DNA of 64,000 nucleotides, taken from Candidatus Woesearchaeota archaeon (lineage in GTDB: Archaea; Nanobdellota; Nanobdellia; Woesearchaeales; UBA9642). A model generated the notes under the pieces. The model saw only the letters and a program-made list of their open reading frames with translations. It ran no database searches and was not told where the DNA came from. Positions 17,073 to 25,488 of the stretch are shown here, one piece after another. Position 1 is the stretch's first letter, and each line of letters begins with the position of its first letter. The DNA lies in the NCBI GenBank assembly GCA_003599145.1, contig QZIT01000006.1, positions 1 to 64,000 of the forward strand, read 5' to 3'. The translations under genes and the position numbers were made by a program.

Positions 17073-18827
17073 ATGATACGGCAGCCTATTATCAGCACCA
17101 TGGGGCATGTGGACCATGGAAAAAGTAGCATTCTTGATTTTATTAGAGATACCTGTATTGTAAAGACAGAGCCTGGCGCCATTACGCAATCCATAGGCGC
17201 AAGCATTGTTCCTATAGAAACCATCAAAAAGCTCTGTGGAGATTTATTGCAGGTTTTTAAATCAGGCATCATCATTCCCGGCTTATTATTCATTGACACT
17301 CCAGGTCATGAAGCGTTCACCAGCTTAAGAAAACGAGGAGGCAATATTGCGGATATTGTCATTTTAGTGGTTGATATCAATGAAGGGTTTAAACCGCAAA
17401 CTCTTGAAGCATTGGAAATTTTAAAATCCTACAAAACACCCTTTGTTGTTGCTGCAAATAAAATAGACTTAATTTCTGGCTGGAAAAGAAACGACCAGAA
17501 ACTGTTGAAAAATATTTCCCTGCAACCACCATCATTGCAAACTACGTTTGATTATAAGTTATATGAGCTAGTTGGAAAATTGTCTGAATTGGGCTTTAAC
17601 AGCGAGCGATTTGATAGAATTGAAGATTACACAAAACAGATAGCCATTGTTCCCACGTCTGCAAAAACAGGAGAGGGCATTCCTGAACTCCTTATGGTTT
17701 TAATAGGGGTAACGCAGAAATTTTTGGAAAATTCCTTGAAATCAAATCTTGAAGGTAACGCCAAAGGTTCTGTTTTAGAAGTGAAAGAACAAAAAGGGTT
17801 AGGCTGTTGTATCGATGTCATTCTTTATGATGGTCATATTGTTGTTGATGACACCATTGTTTTGGGAACCATGAATGAACCTATTGTAACAAAAGTCAGA
17901 GGGTTATTTGAAGCAGCTCCTTTAAGTGAGATGAGAGATAAAAAAGGAAAATTTCTTTCTGTCAAAAGAGTCAATGCAGCGACAGGAGTGCGAATTGTTG
18001 CTCCCAACTTGGACAATGCAATTTCTGGCATGCCTTTAGTTTCCTGCTCTTTATCCGAGATAGAACCTGCAAAAGAGCAAATCCAAAAGGAAATTGAAGA
18101 GGTTTTAATAGAGACTGATGATACAGGCATTATTGTCAAGGCAGATTCTCTTGGAAGCTTGGAAGCATTACTGAAATTATTGAAACAGAAAAATATTGCC
18201 ATACGCAAAGCAACCATAGGAAACATTACCAAAAAAGACGTGGCTGATGCAGAAGCCAATTTGGATAAAGATCCATTGACTGCAGCTATTTTGGGATTTA
18301 ATGTGAAAAATGAAGTTGAATCAGCAAATCCTTACATTAAAATTATCACGCACAATGTTATTTATTCTTTGCTTGACGACTATGAAGCCTGGAAGTTGAA
18401 AGAGAGCCAGAGTTTAGAGGCAAGAGAGTTGGATAATGTCGTAAGGCCCTGTAAAATCCAGCTTTTGAAAAACTATGTCTTTAGACAGAATAATCCTGCA
18501 GTTGTCGGTGTCGATGTGCTTGCAGGAAAATTAAAAGTCGGCACTCCTTTAATGAAAGACGGAAAGGAATTAACCAAAGTAAAATCCATGCAGAGAGAAA
18601 AGGAAAGCGTTCAAATTGCAGAAAGAGGCTCCCAACTGGCTGTTTCCCTTCCTGATGTTACCATAGGACGACAGCTATTCGAAGAAGATGTTCTATACAG
18701 TGCAATTCCTGAACAGGACTTTTTGGTTATTAAACGCTTGAAAAAATATCTTTCTCCTGATGAAACAGAAGTCATCAAAGAAATTGCAGCTATTTACAGA
18801 AAAGACAATCCTGTTTGGGGTGTCTAA
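17073..18827 (+). CDS. infB: translation initiation factor aIF5B
   Basis: 584 residues. A GTPase that promotes initiator tRNA binding and subunit joining. G1 is GHVDHGKSS at 11-19, G3 is FIDTPGHEAF and G4 is AANKIDLISGW. Two beta-barrel domains and the domain III segment (GIIVKADSLGSLEALL) follow, as in the eukaryote/archaeal form. The start is leaderless after CCTTTAAATA. It overlaps the convergent regulator by four bases. Confidence 0.96.
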   Translation: MIRQPIISTMGHVDHGKSSILDFIRDTCIVKTEPGAITQSIGASIVPIETIKKLCGDLLQVFKSGIIIPGLLFIDTPGHEAFTSLRKRGGNIADIVILVVDINEGFKPQTLEALEILKSYKTPFVVAANKIDLISGWKRNDQKLLKNISLQPPSLQTTFDYKLYELVGKLSELGFNSERFDRIEDYTKQIAIVPTSAKTGEGIPELLMVLIGVTQKFLENSLKSNLEGNAKGSVLEVKEQKGLGCCIDVILYDGHIVVDDTIVLGTMNEPIVTKVRGLFEAAPLSEMRDKKGKFLSVKRVNAATGVRIVAPNLDNAISGMPLVSCSLSEIEPAKEQIQKEIEEVLIETDDTGIIVKADSLGSLEALLKLLKQKNIAIRKATIGNITKKDVADAEANLDKDPLTAAILGFNVKNEVESANPYIKIITHNVIYSLLDDYEAWKLKESQSLEARELDNVVRPCKIQLLKNYVFRQNNPAVVGVDVLAGKLKVGTPLMKDGKELTKVKSMQREKESVQIAERGSQLAVSLPDVTIGRQLFEEDVLYSAIPEQDFLVIKRLKKYLSPDETEVIKEIAAIYRKDNPVWGV

Positions 18828-20021: not shown

Positions 20022-20471
20022 ATGAAAATCCTCAATAGCAGAGACAAAAAGCATATCATGCAGTTATTAAAAGAGCAGTTTGGCTTTTCAGCTGATCTTG
20101 ATTATGTTTTTCTCATGAACACCAACAATAGAATTTATCTTGCCAATAGAAGCATTGAAAAAATTGATATGCAAAAAATGCGTATTGACACGTTAGGATT
20201 GTATTTTGGAGAATTGTATAATAATGCTCTGAGATTAAGCATTGAAGGAGCACAATTAATTGCAAAGCATGCAGAAAAAAACATCGTACCATTAAATAAA
20301 GAGCAGATGCTTGAGTGGGTTACGGGAAATGATATTTCCTGCACAGAACAGCATGATGGCTTTGTTATCGTTACCTGGGAAAAGGATGTTTTAGGTTGCG
20401 GCAAGACTAAAAACGGAACGTTGTTTAATTATGTTTCCAAGTCGAGAAAATTAGCAGTGGTGAATATATAA
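20022..20471 (+). CDS. PUA-like RNA-binding protein related to the RsmF C-terminus
   Basis: 149 residues. The end resembles the PUA-like domain found after rRNA m5C methyltransferases: LGLYFGELYNNALRLSIEGAQLIAK, then a hydrophobic WVTGNDI stretch and VLGCGKTKNGTLFNYVSKSR. No methyltransferase domain is present, so it probably binds RNA or guides another enzyme. Leaderless start after CTTTTAAAC. It ends one base before the convergent synthetase gene. Confidence 0.6.
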   Translation: MKILNSRDKKHIMQLLKEQFGFSADLDYVFLMNTNNRIYLANRSIEKIDMQKMRIDTLGLYFGELYNNALRLSIEGAQLIAKHAEKNIVPLNKEQMLEWVTGNDISCTEQHDGFVIVTWEKDVLGCGKTKNGTLFNYVSKSRKLAVVNI

Positions 20472-21515
20472 TTACCAGGGTTCTAATCTTCCTTTGGTGT
20501 GATAATGCAAAAATTCTCCAGGGTTGTCTCTTCTTTGCAAATCCATGATTAATGCCTGCATGGCTAGGCATTGTCTGTAAGAAACTCCCAAACTTTGCCT
20601 CGCATCAATCAACCGTTTTTCATATACTCCATGCTTTGTTCCAGGCAATCTTTCTTGATTCTGAAACATCGATGCAGTCATGATTTGCACTTCTATAGGT
20701 CTTCCGTGCCTGATAAAATTTGCCCTGTATGCTTCAAACCCTCTTATCGGATCTGCAACGTAATCTTTTGGCGGTCGGTCTTCTTCTATTCCTTCAATAT
20801 GCTGCTTGATGCTTTCATAAACTGCTATGCATCGCTTGTGGTCTGTTCTTTTAGTTTTTCCATCACTTAAGATAATCCTGCATGCACTGAGGTCACGAAT
20901 AAGCTTTCCTTCAACACTGCTCATGGCTGATAGGTGGCCATGGAGAATATCTGTTATTTTAAACCAAAGCGTATCTCCTTTAACTCTATAATTTACCCTA
21001 AGAACTCCTAATTTTTTTGCTTCTGCGCTTGCATAATCACTGGTGTTGAAAATTACTCGGCTCCTCGGCTCCAATTCAGATTCGACTTCAGCATTGAGAC
21101 AGGATCTGCAGAGTGCGGTGTAGGATGCTAAAAAACTGACATCCTTGTTGCTAATGTCTTTCAGATCTTGCGTTCTCAGATGCTCCCTTGTTTTAATAGG
21201 CGTATTTTCCCTTGGGCACACGCCCATGGTTTCAATGCTGTAGTTTCCCTGAATTCTAATGCCTAAAACGTTTTTTTCAAAATCCCTGACAAAGTTGTAC
21301 ACTTCAGACTCTGCATCTGCATACAGCAAGCTAAATTCATTCCCAGCATTGATAATATCGTCTGCTGAAATGTTAATGTCTTCTCCTGCATATATTTGTC
21401 GGGCTATTTCGAGCTCTACTTCATAGAGTGTTGTATACTTCTGTCTAATTTTAGGGTCTGCTAAAATAGCATCTAGCCCTGTAGTTCTCTCTGCATCTTC
21501 TGGTGTGTCTGTCAT
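20472..21515 (-). CDS. RelA/SpoT-type nucleotide pyrophosphotransferase (synthetase half of a split Rel)
   Basis: 347 residues. Residues 170-300 follow the RelA/SpoT synthetase order: YRVKGDTLWFKI (R177, K179), IRDLSACRIIL (D208, R213), RPPKDYVADPIRGFEAYRA (D251) and PIEVQIMT (E275), then H295 and Y298. The Tyr and His of the usual G-Y-x-S-x-H become Phe and Arg, and QIRT becomes QIMT. Family members transfer pyrophosphate from ATP to GTP or GDP to make (p)ppGpp; altered positions leave the product open. Residues 1-165 are unrecognised. ATGA overlap with the HD gene upstream. Confidence 0.75.
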   Translation of the reverse strand: MTDTPEDAERTTGLDAILADPKIRQKYTTLYEVELEIARQIYAGEDINISADDIINAGNEFSLLYADAESEVYNFVRDFEKNVLGIRIQGNYSIETMGVCPRENTPIKTREHLRTQDLKDISNKDVSFLASYTALCRSCLNAEVESELEPRSRVIFNTSDYASAEAKKLGVLRVNYRVKGDTLWFKITDILHGHLSAMSSVEGKLIRDLSACRIILSDGKTKRTDHKRCIAVYESIKQHIEGIEEDRPPKDYVADPIRGFEAYRANFIRHGRPIEVQIMTASMFQNQERLPGTKHGVYEKRLIDARQSLGVSYRQCLAMQALIMDLQRRDNPGEFLHYHTKGRLEPW

Positions 21516-23083
21516 AGTCCTTTCACGTAAAACGTTCTGTCGAGCATATAATGTTCATATAATCGTTGCAAGGAAAGCAGGTGGGCATAATAGAGCGGAG
21601 CATCAGAATCAATGCGCTCTTGAGTTTGCTTTGTCTTTAATTCGTTCTGCCCGGGTAGCAATTCTTTTAATCGTGCAATGGTTCCTTCAAAAATTAATTC
21701 GGGGCGCTGTTCAATTAAGTCTTCCCGAGGTTCTTTGCCTGTTTTGTAAAACCCTCCGTGTTGGGTGTAGTCATTGAGCAAATCTGCCATGCCCTGTTTG
21801 TACAATTGGAAATCCGGGATTTGTTCGCTTAGCGCTTCTTCTGTAGCTTTAATTTCCTTTTTCAATGCTTCGTAATTAGTAACAATGTTAAAATCAAGAG
21901 TTGCCATCATGACCTCCAGGGTAGGTCGGCTTTGCCTCCTTTTGGTGAGGTACATTCTTTGCTCGTTGATGACTTTAGTTGCCTTGATGATGTTTTTAAG
22001 TTTTCTGCTTGGAGTGTATGCTGTCATGGTTTGGTTGTTGGTGCTGTTGTCGAGATTTCGCAATGCATACGTCAATTCACGCACTGGCTTTTCAGCATCT
22101 ATGATTGCTTCTGTGCTGTCAAAATAGTTTCCTCCTTTTAATCTTGTTAAATACCAGGTGATGTCGCTGAGCAAACCGATATCTTTATCTCGTTCATCCT
22201 TTGAGGGAAATCTTATTCCTGATTGCTTGCCTATGAATGCTTCATATTCAAGAGCTCCCTTGAGGGTGTCTTCAAATACTTCAAAAATATCTCTGAGAAA
22301 TGTTTCTTTCTTATCTGTTTGGATTTTTTCTGGTTTGAAAAGCCCTTTTCTTCTTTTTTCTTTTACATACCGCTCTGTATGGAGATCTTCCTCGTCATCA
22401 ATTGAGCCGCTTTGCTCAAGAAATTCAATGATGCCGTTGGCTCTGGCTTCCCCTGCATCATGAAATAATGCGCCTGCAACCACAAGATAAGCTATTCCGA
22501 AGTATAAGGGATTTGGGCTTTGGGCGCGTTCATATAAGTAAAGCCCAATCTTTGCAGCTATTGCCTGATGCTGAAATAAGCTTCCTCCAGAATCCCATTG
22601 CTTATAGCGCTCAATGCTTAATCCAACCACTGCTGCTGTTCTCATAAATGCATATTCATATTCATTGAACTCGTAATCTTCAACGATGGCTTCCAAAAAG
22701 GCCTTTAATGGTGCTGAAACTCTCACTGCATCCCATTTGTGCATAAGGATTTCCCTGCTCTTTTCACTAAGGTCTTTTGCGATTTTTCTTGTTTTTGCTG
22801 CGCGTGCCTCGCTGTCCACCGCTGTTTCTAGTAATTTCATGGTTGCTTCATGCATTTCCTTTTCTAAAGCGTTTTTTTGCTTAAGAACTGTGTTTTCAAG
22901 GTTGATAAGGAAGGAACTTAGCTCATCAGCCGTTTCTCTTATTTGTTGATTATGGGCGCTTTGGAGATCGAGGTGATGGTAACCGCTTTCTTGTATGAAT
23001 TCCTCTAAAGCGCTAGCTACATCCGATTGATTTCTGTACATGCTTAAACGTGCTGCTAGTGTCTTAGCCTGTTGGCTGACCAT
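21512..23083 (-). CDS. HD-domain phosphohydrolase (hydrolase half of a split Rel)
   Basis: 523 residues. After a helical N-terminus (1-150, partly coiled coil), H172 in FQHQAIAAKIG and H208-D209 in VVAGALFHDAGEA make the metal-binding H...HD core. Later LDNSTNNQTM aligns with the ADRTHNMRTL motif of Rel hydrolase domains, keeping its Asp and Asn. Such domains remove the 3' pyrophosphate of (p)ppGpp. It precedes and overlaps the synthetase gene, the same order as the domains in long Rel proteins. The C-terminal 150 residues are unassigned. TATA about 23107. Confidence 0.7.
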   Translation of the reverse strand: MVSQQAKTLAARLSMYRNQSDVASALEEFIQESGYHHLDLQSAHNQQIRETADELSSFLINLENTVLKQKNALEKEMHEATMKLLETAVDSEARAAKTRKIAKDLSEKSREILMHKWDAVRVSAPLKAFLEAIVEDYEFNEYEYAFMRTAAVVGLSIERYKQWDSGGSLFQHQAIAAKIGLYLYERAQSPNPLYFGIAYLVVAGALFHDAGEARANGIIEFLEQSGSIDDEEDLHTERYVKEKRRKGLFKPEKIQTDKKETFLRDIFEVFEDTLKGALEYEAFIGKQSGIRFPSKDERDKDIGLLSDITWYLTRLKGGNYFDSTEAIIDAEKPVRELTYALRNLDNSTNNQTMTAYTPSRKLKNIIKATKVINEQRMYLTKRRQSRPTLEVMMATLDFNIVTNYEALKKEIKATEEALSEQIPDFQLYKQGMADLLNDYTQHGGFYKTGKEPREDLIEQRPELIFEGTIARLKELLPGQNELKTKQTQERIDSDAPLYYAHLLSLQRLYEHYMLDRTFYVKGL

Positions 23084-23131: not shown

Positions 23132-23590
23132 TTATGAGTGAGTACTCTTCCAGATTGCGTCTCCAACATAATGGATGTTTTGCACAGCTTTGCCTTTTGC
23201 CATCTGTTGCATGTCTTTTCCAGAACATAAGGCTAGACCAATACAAATAGGCTTTTTGAAGTTCTGGTCTTTTAAGACAACAGGCTCGCCTTGTACAATA
23301 GTTTCATCAATCTGCACTATCCCTGGTCTCATAACATCTGCACCTTTAATAAGAAAAGGGATGGCAGGCATGTCAATAATGAGCGTTTTCAAATAATCTG
23401 GGTGGTCTAAGAGAAAATGAAGTGTGGGAATAGTCTTTTTTTGGTTGTGATCCTCAAAATAAAAAAATGCAGGTTTGTCATTGACAAAAATGACTGTTTC
23501 AATAATCTCAATTTTGTCTTTTTTATGAAAAGGAAAGTGAAGTTCTATACTTAATGCCTTTATTTCAGAATTACTTAAGCGCTTTCTCAT
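23132..23590 (-). CDS. DUF1947-PUA RNA-binding protein (MCT-1/Tma20-like)
   Basis: 152 residues from ATG 23590, inside the 3' end of the HAD gene. The N-terminal half (MRKRLSNSEIKAL to the hydrophobic IDMPAIPFL) is the DUF1947 part. The PUA domain runs GADVMRPGIVQIDE, PICIGLALCSGKDM and NIHYVGDAIW. In eukaryotes MCT-1/Tma20 aids translation reinitiation and ribosome recycling; the archaeal role is not settled. Confidence 0.82.
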   Translation of the reverse strand: MRKRLSNSEIKALSIELHFPFHKKDKIEIIETVIFVNDKPAFFYFEDHNQKKTIPTLHFLLDHPDYLKTLIIDMPAIPFLIKGADVMRPGIVQIDETIVQGEPVVLKDQNFKKPICIGLALCSGKDMQQMAKGKAVQNIHYVGDAIWKSTHS

Positions 23591-24275
23591 TGAGAATTTT
23601 TGCAACCTCTTTAATGTCGGTAATTTCATAATCAATAAATGCATGATGAGATGATACGTGAATGCTTTGCTTTGTCCATATGGTTTTCATACCTAATCTT
23701 TTTGCTCCAAGCAAGTCGCTTGAAGGGTCATCGCCTACCATGATGCATTCGTCTGGCTTTACATTGAATGTTTTCATAATGAGCTGATAAATCCTTGGAT
23801 CAGGTTTGTTGAATCCAGTGTCATCTGTTGTAAATACGCCATCAACCATTTTATCGACTTTGAGTTTTTTGATGCGCATCATTTTGTATTCCTTTTTGCC
23901 GTCAGAATCAGTGAGAATGGCAAGCTTGTATTTTTTTCTTAGTTCGCTTAAGAGTTCAGAAACTCCTGGAAACAGGGAAACTCTTTTGGTAATCTCCTTC
24001 CAGTATTCTTCAGTCCATGCAGTGAGCTGTTTATCCTCTGCAATGATTTTAAACTGCGCTAAAGCGCCCCTATACCAATTATAGCGGTCATGAACAGACG
24101 GGTATTTTCCTCCTCTAAGCTTGTTTTTAACGTCATTATACGCGCTCCTGAATAACGTTGGATGAAGCCCGTACTTTTTGGCGATTTTTTCAGACATGAC
24201 AATATCAACTTCTGCCTCGGGAACAATCCACTGTTCAATAGTATTGTCAAAATCAAAAATAACAACTTTAATCAT
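23571..24275 (-). CDS. HAD-superfamily hydrolase
   Basis: 234 residues. Motif I is FDFDNTIEQ (nucleophile Asp), motif II ILTDSDGKK, motif III a lysine in GFNKPDPRIY, and motif IV VGDDPSSDLLGAK. A helical cap sits between motifs I and II. This is HAD subfamily IA, a small-molecule phosphatase of unknown substrate. It overlaps the coiled-coil gene upstream by four bases and the PUA gene downstream by 20. Confidence 0.85.
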   Translation of the reverse strand: MIKVVIFDFDNTIEQWIVPEAEVDIVMSEKIAKKYGLHPTLFRSAYNDVKNKLRGGKYPSVHDRYNWYRGALAQFKIIAEDKQLTAWTEEYWKEITKRVSLFPGVSELLSELRKKYKLAILTDSDGKKEYKMMRIKKLKVDKMVDGVFTTDDTGFNKPDPRIYQLIMKTFNVKPDECIMVGDDPSSDLLGAKRLGMKTIWTKQSIHVSSHHAFIDYEITDIKEVAKILNEKALK

Positions 24276-24579: not shown

Positions 24580-25488
24580 ATGCGTATGACCGAGTCTTAT
24601 TATAAACATGGGCTTGTTTCAAAGGAAGAATGGGAAAAAGCCATTCGTGAGATAAAAAGGCAAACTGTTCAGGGTGTGGTTCAAAACCATGGCCAGTTGA
24701 AAGAGCAGGTTAAACGCGCCTTGATATCTGCAATAGAGTTAAGAACAAAAGGCTTAGATCATTTTTGCATTTTCTTTTCAGGAGGCATTGATTCAACCAT
24801 TATTGCAATTATTTGCAAGCAATTGAAAAAAAACTTTACGTGTATTGCTGTTGGTTTTCAGGATACTGCTTTTAAAGAGCCTGAAGACTTGATTTGGGCA
24901 AAAAAGATTGCAACCGAACTTGGCTTAGCTCTGAAAATGAAAATATACCCCTTGCAGGAAACAGAAGCTGTTTTTAAGGAAGTTGTTCATGCCCTAGGCG
25001 ATTACGCCAATGTGGTTAACGTCGGTGTTGGCAGCGTTGTTGTAGCAGCTGCAAAGCTTGCAAACGACCAAGATTTTTTCTCAGGGTTGGGCAGCGAAGA
25101 AATTTTTGCTGGGTATGATAGGCACAAAAAGAACCCTTCAAACGAGGAATGCTGGAATGGGCTGTTGCAAATGCATGAAAGGGATTTGATACGCGATACG
25201 CTTTTAGCAAATCATCTGAATATCCGGATACATACGCCGTTTTTAGATGATGGCCTTATAAAAGAAGCGATGAGTGTTCCTATAGCCATGAAATTGCATG
25301 AAGATCACGTAAAGTATATTCTGCGCGAAATCGCCATAGATTTAGGTTTAAAGGAAGCATTTGCAATGAGAAAAAAGAGAGCAGCACAGTATGGCAGCAG
25401 CTTTGACAGAGCAATGCAAAAATTAGCAAAAAAAAATAATTTTGTCTATAAGCAAGATTACTTAACAGCATTAAAGTCTCAACCTTAA
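24580..25488 (+). CDS. asparagine-synthase-like ATP pyrophosphatase without glutaminase domain
   Basis: 302 residues. The PP-loop is FFSGGIDSTIIAI near residue 70; GLGSEEIFAGYDRHK and a late KKRAAQYGS match the synthetase domain of asparagine synthetase B. The N-terminal Ntn glutaminase domain, which makes ammonia from glutamine, is absent. It may use free ammonia or catalyse another adenylation, as beta-lactam synthetase relatives do. The nearest TATA-like element is GTATAAAAAA at about 24556-24565. Confidence 0.75.
   Translation: MRMTESYYKHGLVSKEEWEKAIREIKRQTVQGVVQNHGQLKEQVKRALISAIELRTKGLDHFCIFFSGGIDSTIIAIICKQLKKNFTCIAVGFQDTAFKEPEDLIWAKKIATELGLALKMKIYPLQETEAVFKEVVHALGDYANVVNVGVGSVVVAAAKLANDQDFFSGLGSEEIFAGYDRHKKNPSNEECWNGLLQMHERDLIRDTLLANHLNIRIHTPFLDDGLIKEAMSVPIAMKLHEDHVKYILREIAIDLGLKEAFAMRKKRAAQYGSSFDRAMQKLAKKNNFVYKQDYLTALKSQP

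Follow-up and report, generated by a model that had tools for sequence, protein, structure and literature searches.

Does a pair of overlapping genes beside infB in a small archaeal genome encode a RelA/SpoT-type enzyme divided between two polypeptides and, if so, how would the two parts work together? The genes lie in the 64,000-nucleotide stretch of DNA analysed here (hereafter, the window), which belongs to the 1.31-Mb archaeal genome of a Candidatus Woesearchaeota member. A sequence-only reading of the window had described an HD hydrolase gene that overlaps by ATGA a gene for a RelA/SpoT-like synthetase, and had proposed a two-subunit alarmone enzyme; both ORFs (hereafter, HD and SYN) and their overlap exist as described. 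The same reading noted that most archaea lack (p)ppGpp metabolism. RSH enzymes have classically been reported as rare in archaea, the RSH classification listing a few singletons from archaea, divRel, divSpo and Mesh1-L among them (PMC3153485), and (p)ppGpp was undetected in two archaeal models (PMC8646023). As a ground for novelty, archaeal absence gives way in the order to which the window belongs: the Pfam RelA_SpoT model (PF04607), run on all 353 genomes of the order, matched 171, mostly through long Rel, and RelA/SpoT has been reported in 41.7% of Woesearchaeota (PMC8407392). RelA/SpoT in such archaea is thus known; what appears to be new is the HD-SYN pair at infB, conserved and hypervariable, with its parts encoded by separate genes; we found no description of it in the non-subscription literature searched.

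The gene pair and its relatives at the infB locus

The features of the locus, in window coordinates, are as follows.

17073..18827, plus strand: infB of the archaeal aIF-2/IF5B type, the locus anchor (TIGR00491, aIF-2 equivalog, E=1.6e-221)
20022..20471, plus strand: PUA/RsmF-C-like gene, convergent (Pfam PF13636, E=2.4e-9)
20472..21515, minus strand: SYN gene, 347-aa ORF, predicted divergent RelA/SpoT-fold pyrophosphokinase
20613..21005, minus strand: SYNTH domain (SYN residues 171-301), scored at 41.4 bits by the domain profile built without the window
20685..20693, minus strand: E275-x-Q277, catalytic Glu motif of SYN
20892..20894, minus strand: D208, catalytic Asp of SYN
20979..20987, minus strand: R177-x-K179, ATP-site motif of SYN
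21512..21515, minus strand: ATGA stop/start overlap of HD and SYN, read from both ORFs
21512..23083, minus strand: HD gene, 523-aa ORF, predicted Rel/Mesh1-type HD pyrophosphohydrolase, upstream member of the pair
21962..22609, minus strand: catalytic core of HD, residues ~159-374, aligned to the family profiles
22037..22051, minus strand: D345 and N349 of HD, equivalents of ADRxxN in Rel
22457..22462, minus strand: H208-D209 metal-binding motif (HDAGE) of HD, with H and D kept in 35/35
24580..25488, plus strand: asparagine-synthase-like gene

The stop codon of SYN directly abuts that of the convergent PUA-like gene, a conserved flank that was detected at most infB loci. An arCOG00985 PUA protein and a HAD phosphatase (23132-24275, minus strand) lie between HD and the asparagine-synthase-like gene, homologues of which also accompany the pair at many fetched loci; the gene at 23132-23644 encodes a universal archaeal PUA protein, which, together with the aIF-2 equivalog match of infB, supports the assignment of the window to archaea. 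HAD-like genes are present beyond the PUA gene also in two genomes of the same family (G001 and G005).

Direct searches with either window protein detected no relative in the 60 nearest genomes, the genome contigs or the viral contigs, and no credible one among phages and plasmids; SYN, searched directly against all 353 genomes of the order, had no relative there. These searches failed because the sequences are too diverged, such hypervariability causing single-gene searches to miss the pair, and infB was therefore used as the anchor instead. Most PF04607 matches are canonical Rels of ~650 aa, the rest being weaker matches to shorter proteins, and around the weak matches one gene order recurs: infB, the PUA gene and then two genes on the opposite strand, one RelA-like and the next one larger. 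We located infB in 348 of the 353 genomes and fetched 100 further infB regions, arriving at 120 loci that, with the window, come from 119 genomes. A profile of 28 long Rels from the order is divided between the two genes at these loci. Its HD part (positions 6-157) matches the gene farther from PUA (L161, E=5e-19; L105, 4e-11; also L162, L129, L090 and others), its synthetase part (216-347) matches the PUA-adjacent gene (L133, L063, L065, L141, L154 and others), and at L141 and L162 it recognises both neighbouring genes at once.

SYN of the window matches Pfam RelA_SpoT over residues 204-288 (E=2.1e-4) at 22 bits, below the cut-off of 27. Profiles built without the window recover SYN far better: a profile of 12 syntenic relatives detects it at 33 bits (E=5.1e-10 among 446 ORFs), and a domain-only profile at 41 bits, compared with 8.0 bits for the best of 2000 shuffles. 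Among the SYN relatives, 22 of 25 match Pfam RelA_SpoT (E<=0.1). When the SYN family profile, in which the window is one of ~25 rows, was searched against the PDB, every match below 1e-6 was a RelA/SpoT synthetase, with RelQ at the top (1e-22), followed by RelP and Rel (5e-19); of the toxSAS structures in the PDB, a small sample, CapRel was matched at 2e-9 and FaRel2 at 9e-8.

On its sequence, HD of the window is the weaker case of the two. Alone, it has no curated HD-domain match at E<=10 and no credible Pfam, NCBIfam or PDB match; the SRA1, IS240 and MarA (Pfam/NCBIfam) and GCN4 (PDB) matches were rejected as coiled-coil or chance noise. A profile of 10 syntenic HD genes, with the window left out, detects it at E=8.3e-8 and 21.9 bits versus 5.9 for the best shuffle, and a MAFFT domain-only profile is weaker (14.2 bits versus 10.2). 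Because the domain-only score is modest, the assignment rests on the full-length profile, the position and the complete active site together. For the family as a whole, hhalign aligns the ten HD seeds to long Rel with a probability of 99.2 (E=1.2e-19), Pfam HD_4 matches 6 of 24 HD proteins and the family profile, again with the window among its ~25 rows, finds in the PDB below 1e-6 only Rel (top, 1e-18), Mesh1 (9e-12) and SAH hydrolases. AlphaFold models from the single sequences, with pLDDT values of 32 and 41, were uninformative. The weak single-sequence scores are what would be expected if these were hypothetical genes unrelated to RSH that resemble it by chance, but the window-excluded profiles, the shuffles, the synteny and the PDB profile matches make this explanation scarcely credible.

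Conservation in both families is concentrated in the active sites. In the alignment of 48 SYN proteins, R177 (39/47), K179 (42/45), K186, D208 (45/47), E275 (39/48) and Q277 (41/48) are among the best-conserved columns, and in that of 36 HD proteins, H172, H208 and D209 are invariant where present, along with E212 (33/35), R159 (32/35), D345 (33/36) and N349 (28/35), the window HD holding this full set; fitting the alignments to profiles favours shared columns, yet little else is conserved in them (mean column identity 18-19%). We take the conserved HD and SYN columns to be the hydrolase and synthetase catalytic residues of the RelSeq structure. All residues that had been singled out from the sequence, namely, H172, H208, D209 and D345 (the first D of LDNSTNNQTM) of HD and R177, D208, D251, E275 and H295 of SYN, fall in conserved columns. 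The further suggestion that replacement of Tyr by Phe and of QIRT by QIMT signals a different nucleotide product did not survive comparison within the family: the acceptor-stacking position, Phe260 in the window, is Tyr in 27 of 46 SYN proteins and Phe in 12, and the QIRT positions vary throughout, so neither change is special to the window SYN. Phe260, together with Arg264, which stands where His is the commonest residue (22/48), could also suggest catalytically dead relatives kept as regulators, and the matching Tyr-to-Phe change impairs the toxSAS FaRel2 (PMC11782079). In the window pair, both sites nevertheless keep their core catalytic residues, which lie in some of the best-conserved columns of otherwise variable families, and we consider such loss of activity very unlikely.

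Distribution of the pair and of canonical Rel

The survey of related genomes, proposed in the original reading, did reveal the gene pair elsewhere: adjacent HD and SYN genes are present in 29 of the 119 sampled genomes, and one more pair was found later (L206). In 71 loci, PUA is followed by 3.5 kb or more of sequence; SYN or HD was recognised in 40 of these and both in 21, counts from which more divergent copies may be missing. Within the sample of the class that was searched, HD matches of at least 100 bits occur only inside the order, and the same holds for SYN. A search for a fused HD-SYN form found none, each ORF of the candidate set having at most one of the two domains.

Several loci and protein groups depart from this arrangement. 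At five loci (L133, L174, L154, L080 and L126), only SYN or only HD was recognised, which could reflect either loss of the partner or a partner too divergent for the profiles. At two others (L161:2085-3182 and L165:2125-3222), the order is different, with HD adjoining infB and SYN beyond PUA; these loci, from G088 and G010, encode proteins with identical scores despite the placement of the two genomes in different families, and G088 has a second infB, so contamination is possible. RelA_SpoT proteins of 355-460 aa with a WRASHSYPLH-like motif and a common C-terminal half are widespread (L034, L037, L040-L046, L049) and represent a separate small-synthetase family in the order. Genomes of family f63 (L203, L204, L205, L207-L209, L212, L213) encode stand-alone HD proteins of ~390 aa, and most of them also carry canonical Rel; these proteins match the HD family profile, but the profiles used recognised no SYN gene next to them, and they were left uncounted.

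The genome that holds the window lacks canonical Rel, the PF04607 search giving no match in it, whereas four genomes of the same family (G001, G003, G004, G005) have long Rel. It does encode a 183-aa stand-alone HD protein outside the window (L214:5899-6450, contig C2 near 367.9-368.4 kb) that matches the long-Rel profile at E=8e-46; the occurrence of this SAH-like small alarmone hydrolase where canonical Rel is missing hints at a pyrophosphorylated nucleotide in the organism. A test for mutual exclusion of the pair and canonical Rel over the sampled genomes gave no significant result, with 6 of the pair genomes having Rel and 23 lacking it (p=0.63).

The pair might have originated by fission of the canonical long Rel of the order, in which case the halves could still constitute one heteromeric, allosterically coupled stringent-response enzyme. 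Such an origin would fit the gene order, which is the domain order of Rel, the ATGA coupling and the presence of long Rel in same-family relatives of the window genome, which itself has none. It fits less well with G001 and G005, which have neither SYN nor HD at the infB locus, or with the large extra regions of both proteins and the lack of TGS/ACT, and the six genomes that hold both the pair and long Rel indicate that the former is more than just a divided version of the latter.

Hypervariability and decoupled divergence of the partners

Across the 24 loci with SYN, HD and infB, the median pairwise identity is 0.60 for infB and 0.49 for PUA, compared with 0.25 for SYN and 0.24 for HD, which is no higher than the shuffled baseline of 0.27. 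Outside the catalytic residues, SYN and HD are no more alike than expected by chance, in most cases even between loci whose infB genes are 78-85% identical. The identity of infB is 65% or higher in 56 locus pairs. PUA is alignable in all of them, whereas SYN and HD are both alignable over 250 aa in a single pair, only one of them in 17 and neither in 38. For example, L072 and L149 (infB 83%) share 38% identity over 393 aa of SYN and no significant HD similarity by BLAST, and L149 and L122 (infB 81%) share 49% over 341 aa of HD and no SYN similarity. Thus, SYN and HD each diverge or are replaced without the other.

This decoupling argues against any need for close mutual recognition of the partners, which therefore most likely meet via the product. 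Accordingly, the two-subunit enzyme stands only in part: a Rel/Mesh1-type HD hydrolase and a RelA/SpoT-fold synthetase are encoded separately and in tandem in a genome with no canonical Rel, but tight association is at odds with a pattern so unlike that of a co-evolving interface. Independent change of the two proteins likewise speaks against the halves of a split Rel, an origin that we regard as unlikely. A shared product, rather than a co-evolved complex, probably links the two enzymes, and the reading that we prefer, and deem likely, is that of a split RelA/SpoT-type pair, with opposing enzymes on separate chains linked in this way.

Extreme divergence at a fixed locus, with the two genes diverging independently, is also what a conflict module might produce. 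SYN would then be a toxSAS-like effector, acting by pyrophosphorylation of tRNA CCA ends or by synthesis of toxic (pp)pApp, with HD as its enzymatic antidote, and the variable extensions of the two proteins would sense invaders or other triggers; in line with this, SYN proteins range from ~300 to 914 aa, with the variation mostly outside the SYNTH domain. Conversely, the chromosomal position is fixed beside infB rather than in mobile islands, no virus-borne copies were found in the viral and phage sequences searched, and the window pair has no significant PADLOC defence match (none for SYN; best 0.04 for HD). The SYN profile also seems nearer to RelQ, RelP and Rel than to CapRel or FaRel2 in the small sample of the PDB, though those toxins are themselves diverged. 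On balance, we see a conflict module as a tenable but less probable explanation.

A putative reversible brake and its known counterparts

On this basis, we infer the enzyme activity, the reaction direction, the acceptor and the physiological role of the pair as follows. The conserved residues imply pyrophosphate transfer from ATP by SYN and removal of a 3'-pyrophosphate by HD. The acceptor, which would receive the pyrophosphate at its 3'-OH, could be a nucleotide of guanosine or adenosine or the 3' end of an RNA, and HD would take off the group that SYN had added. Translational coupling through ATGA would keep the two proteins made together and, with the hydrolase gene first, the brake would not be made without its release. 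Meeting via the product would let either gene diverge or be replaced alone, and SYN and HD together could serve as a reversible brake, whether on growth or on translation. A house-keeping brake is favoured by the location next to infB and the apparent nearness to the RelQ/Rel profiles; the hypervariability favours a conflict role. A product-linked enzymatic pair and a conflict role overlap, the latter being one use of such a pair. Tentatively, and with less confidence than in the enzymatic pair itself, this could be a hypervariable core-genome module for putting pyrophosphate on and taking it off, fixed beside infB and serving as an immunity or conflict system that controls translation through alarmones or tRNA pyrophosphorylation. 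If so, such a module would lie in a domain of life where signalling of this kind has barely been studied.

Besides many canonical Rels, an archaeal order with small genomes carries, at a fixed translation locus, a separate pair of genes for a synthetase and a hydrolase, a concrete candidate for pyrophosphate-based control of archaeal translation. The combination of fixed place, fixed active sites, free sequence and decoupled partners is unusual and could help separate house-keeping from conflict roles.

Among known systems, the long RSH enzymes (Rel/RelA/SpoT) have the HD and SYNTH domains in the same order and the same catalytic residues in both sites; unlike them, the pair consists of two polypeptides of hypervariable sequence, with long variable extensions and no TGS-ACT region. 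RelQ (YwaC) and RelP (YjbM), the best PDB profile matches of SYN, share with it the stand-alone SYNTH domain, whereas SYN is archaeal, has a large N-terminal extension (160 residues in the window), is accompanied by a dedicated HD partner gene and shows much lower similarity. Mesh1 and the small alarmone hydrolases resemble HD in standing alone and in having the active-site residues of Rel/Mesh1 (R, H, HD, E, D and N), but the HD proteins of this family, at ~340-600 aa, contain an insertion between the HD motif and the last Asp, and their gene adjoins that of a synthetase. CapRel, like SYN, combines the SYNTH domain with a variable accessory region; it is a single polypeptide with a pseudo-zinc-finger antitoxin, whereas here the HD enzyme is encoded by a separate gene. 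The toxSAS-SAH operon FaRel/ATfaRel similarly encodes a synthetase and an HD hydrolase together as opposing enzymes, and the product-linked action proposed here for the pair is akin to that of the FaRel SAH antitoxin, described as promiscuously neutralising toxSAS products (PMC11782079), a parallel that also speaks for a conflict module. The archaeal pair differs from that operon in its fixed core-genome locus, its lack of known toxicity, its weak toxSAS similarity and the lack of a visible second protein antitoxin.
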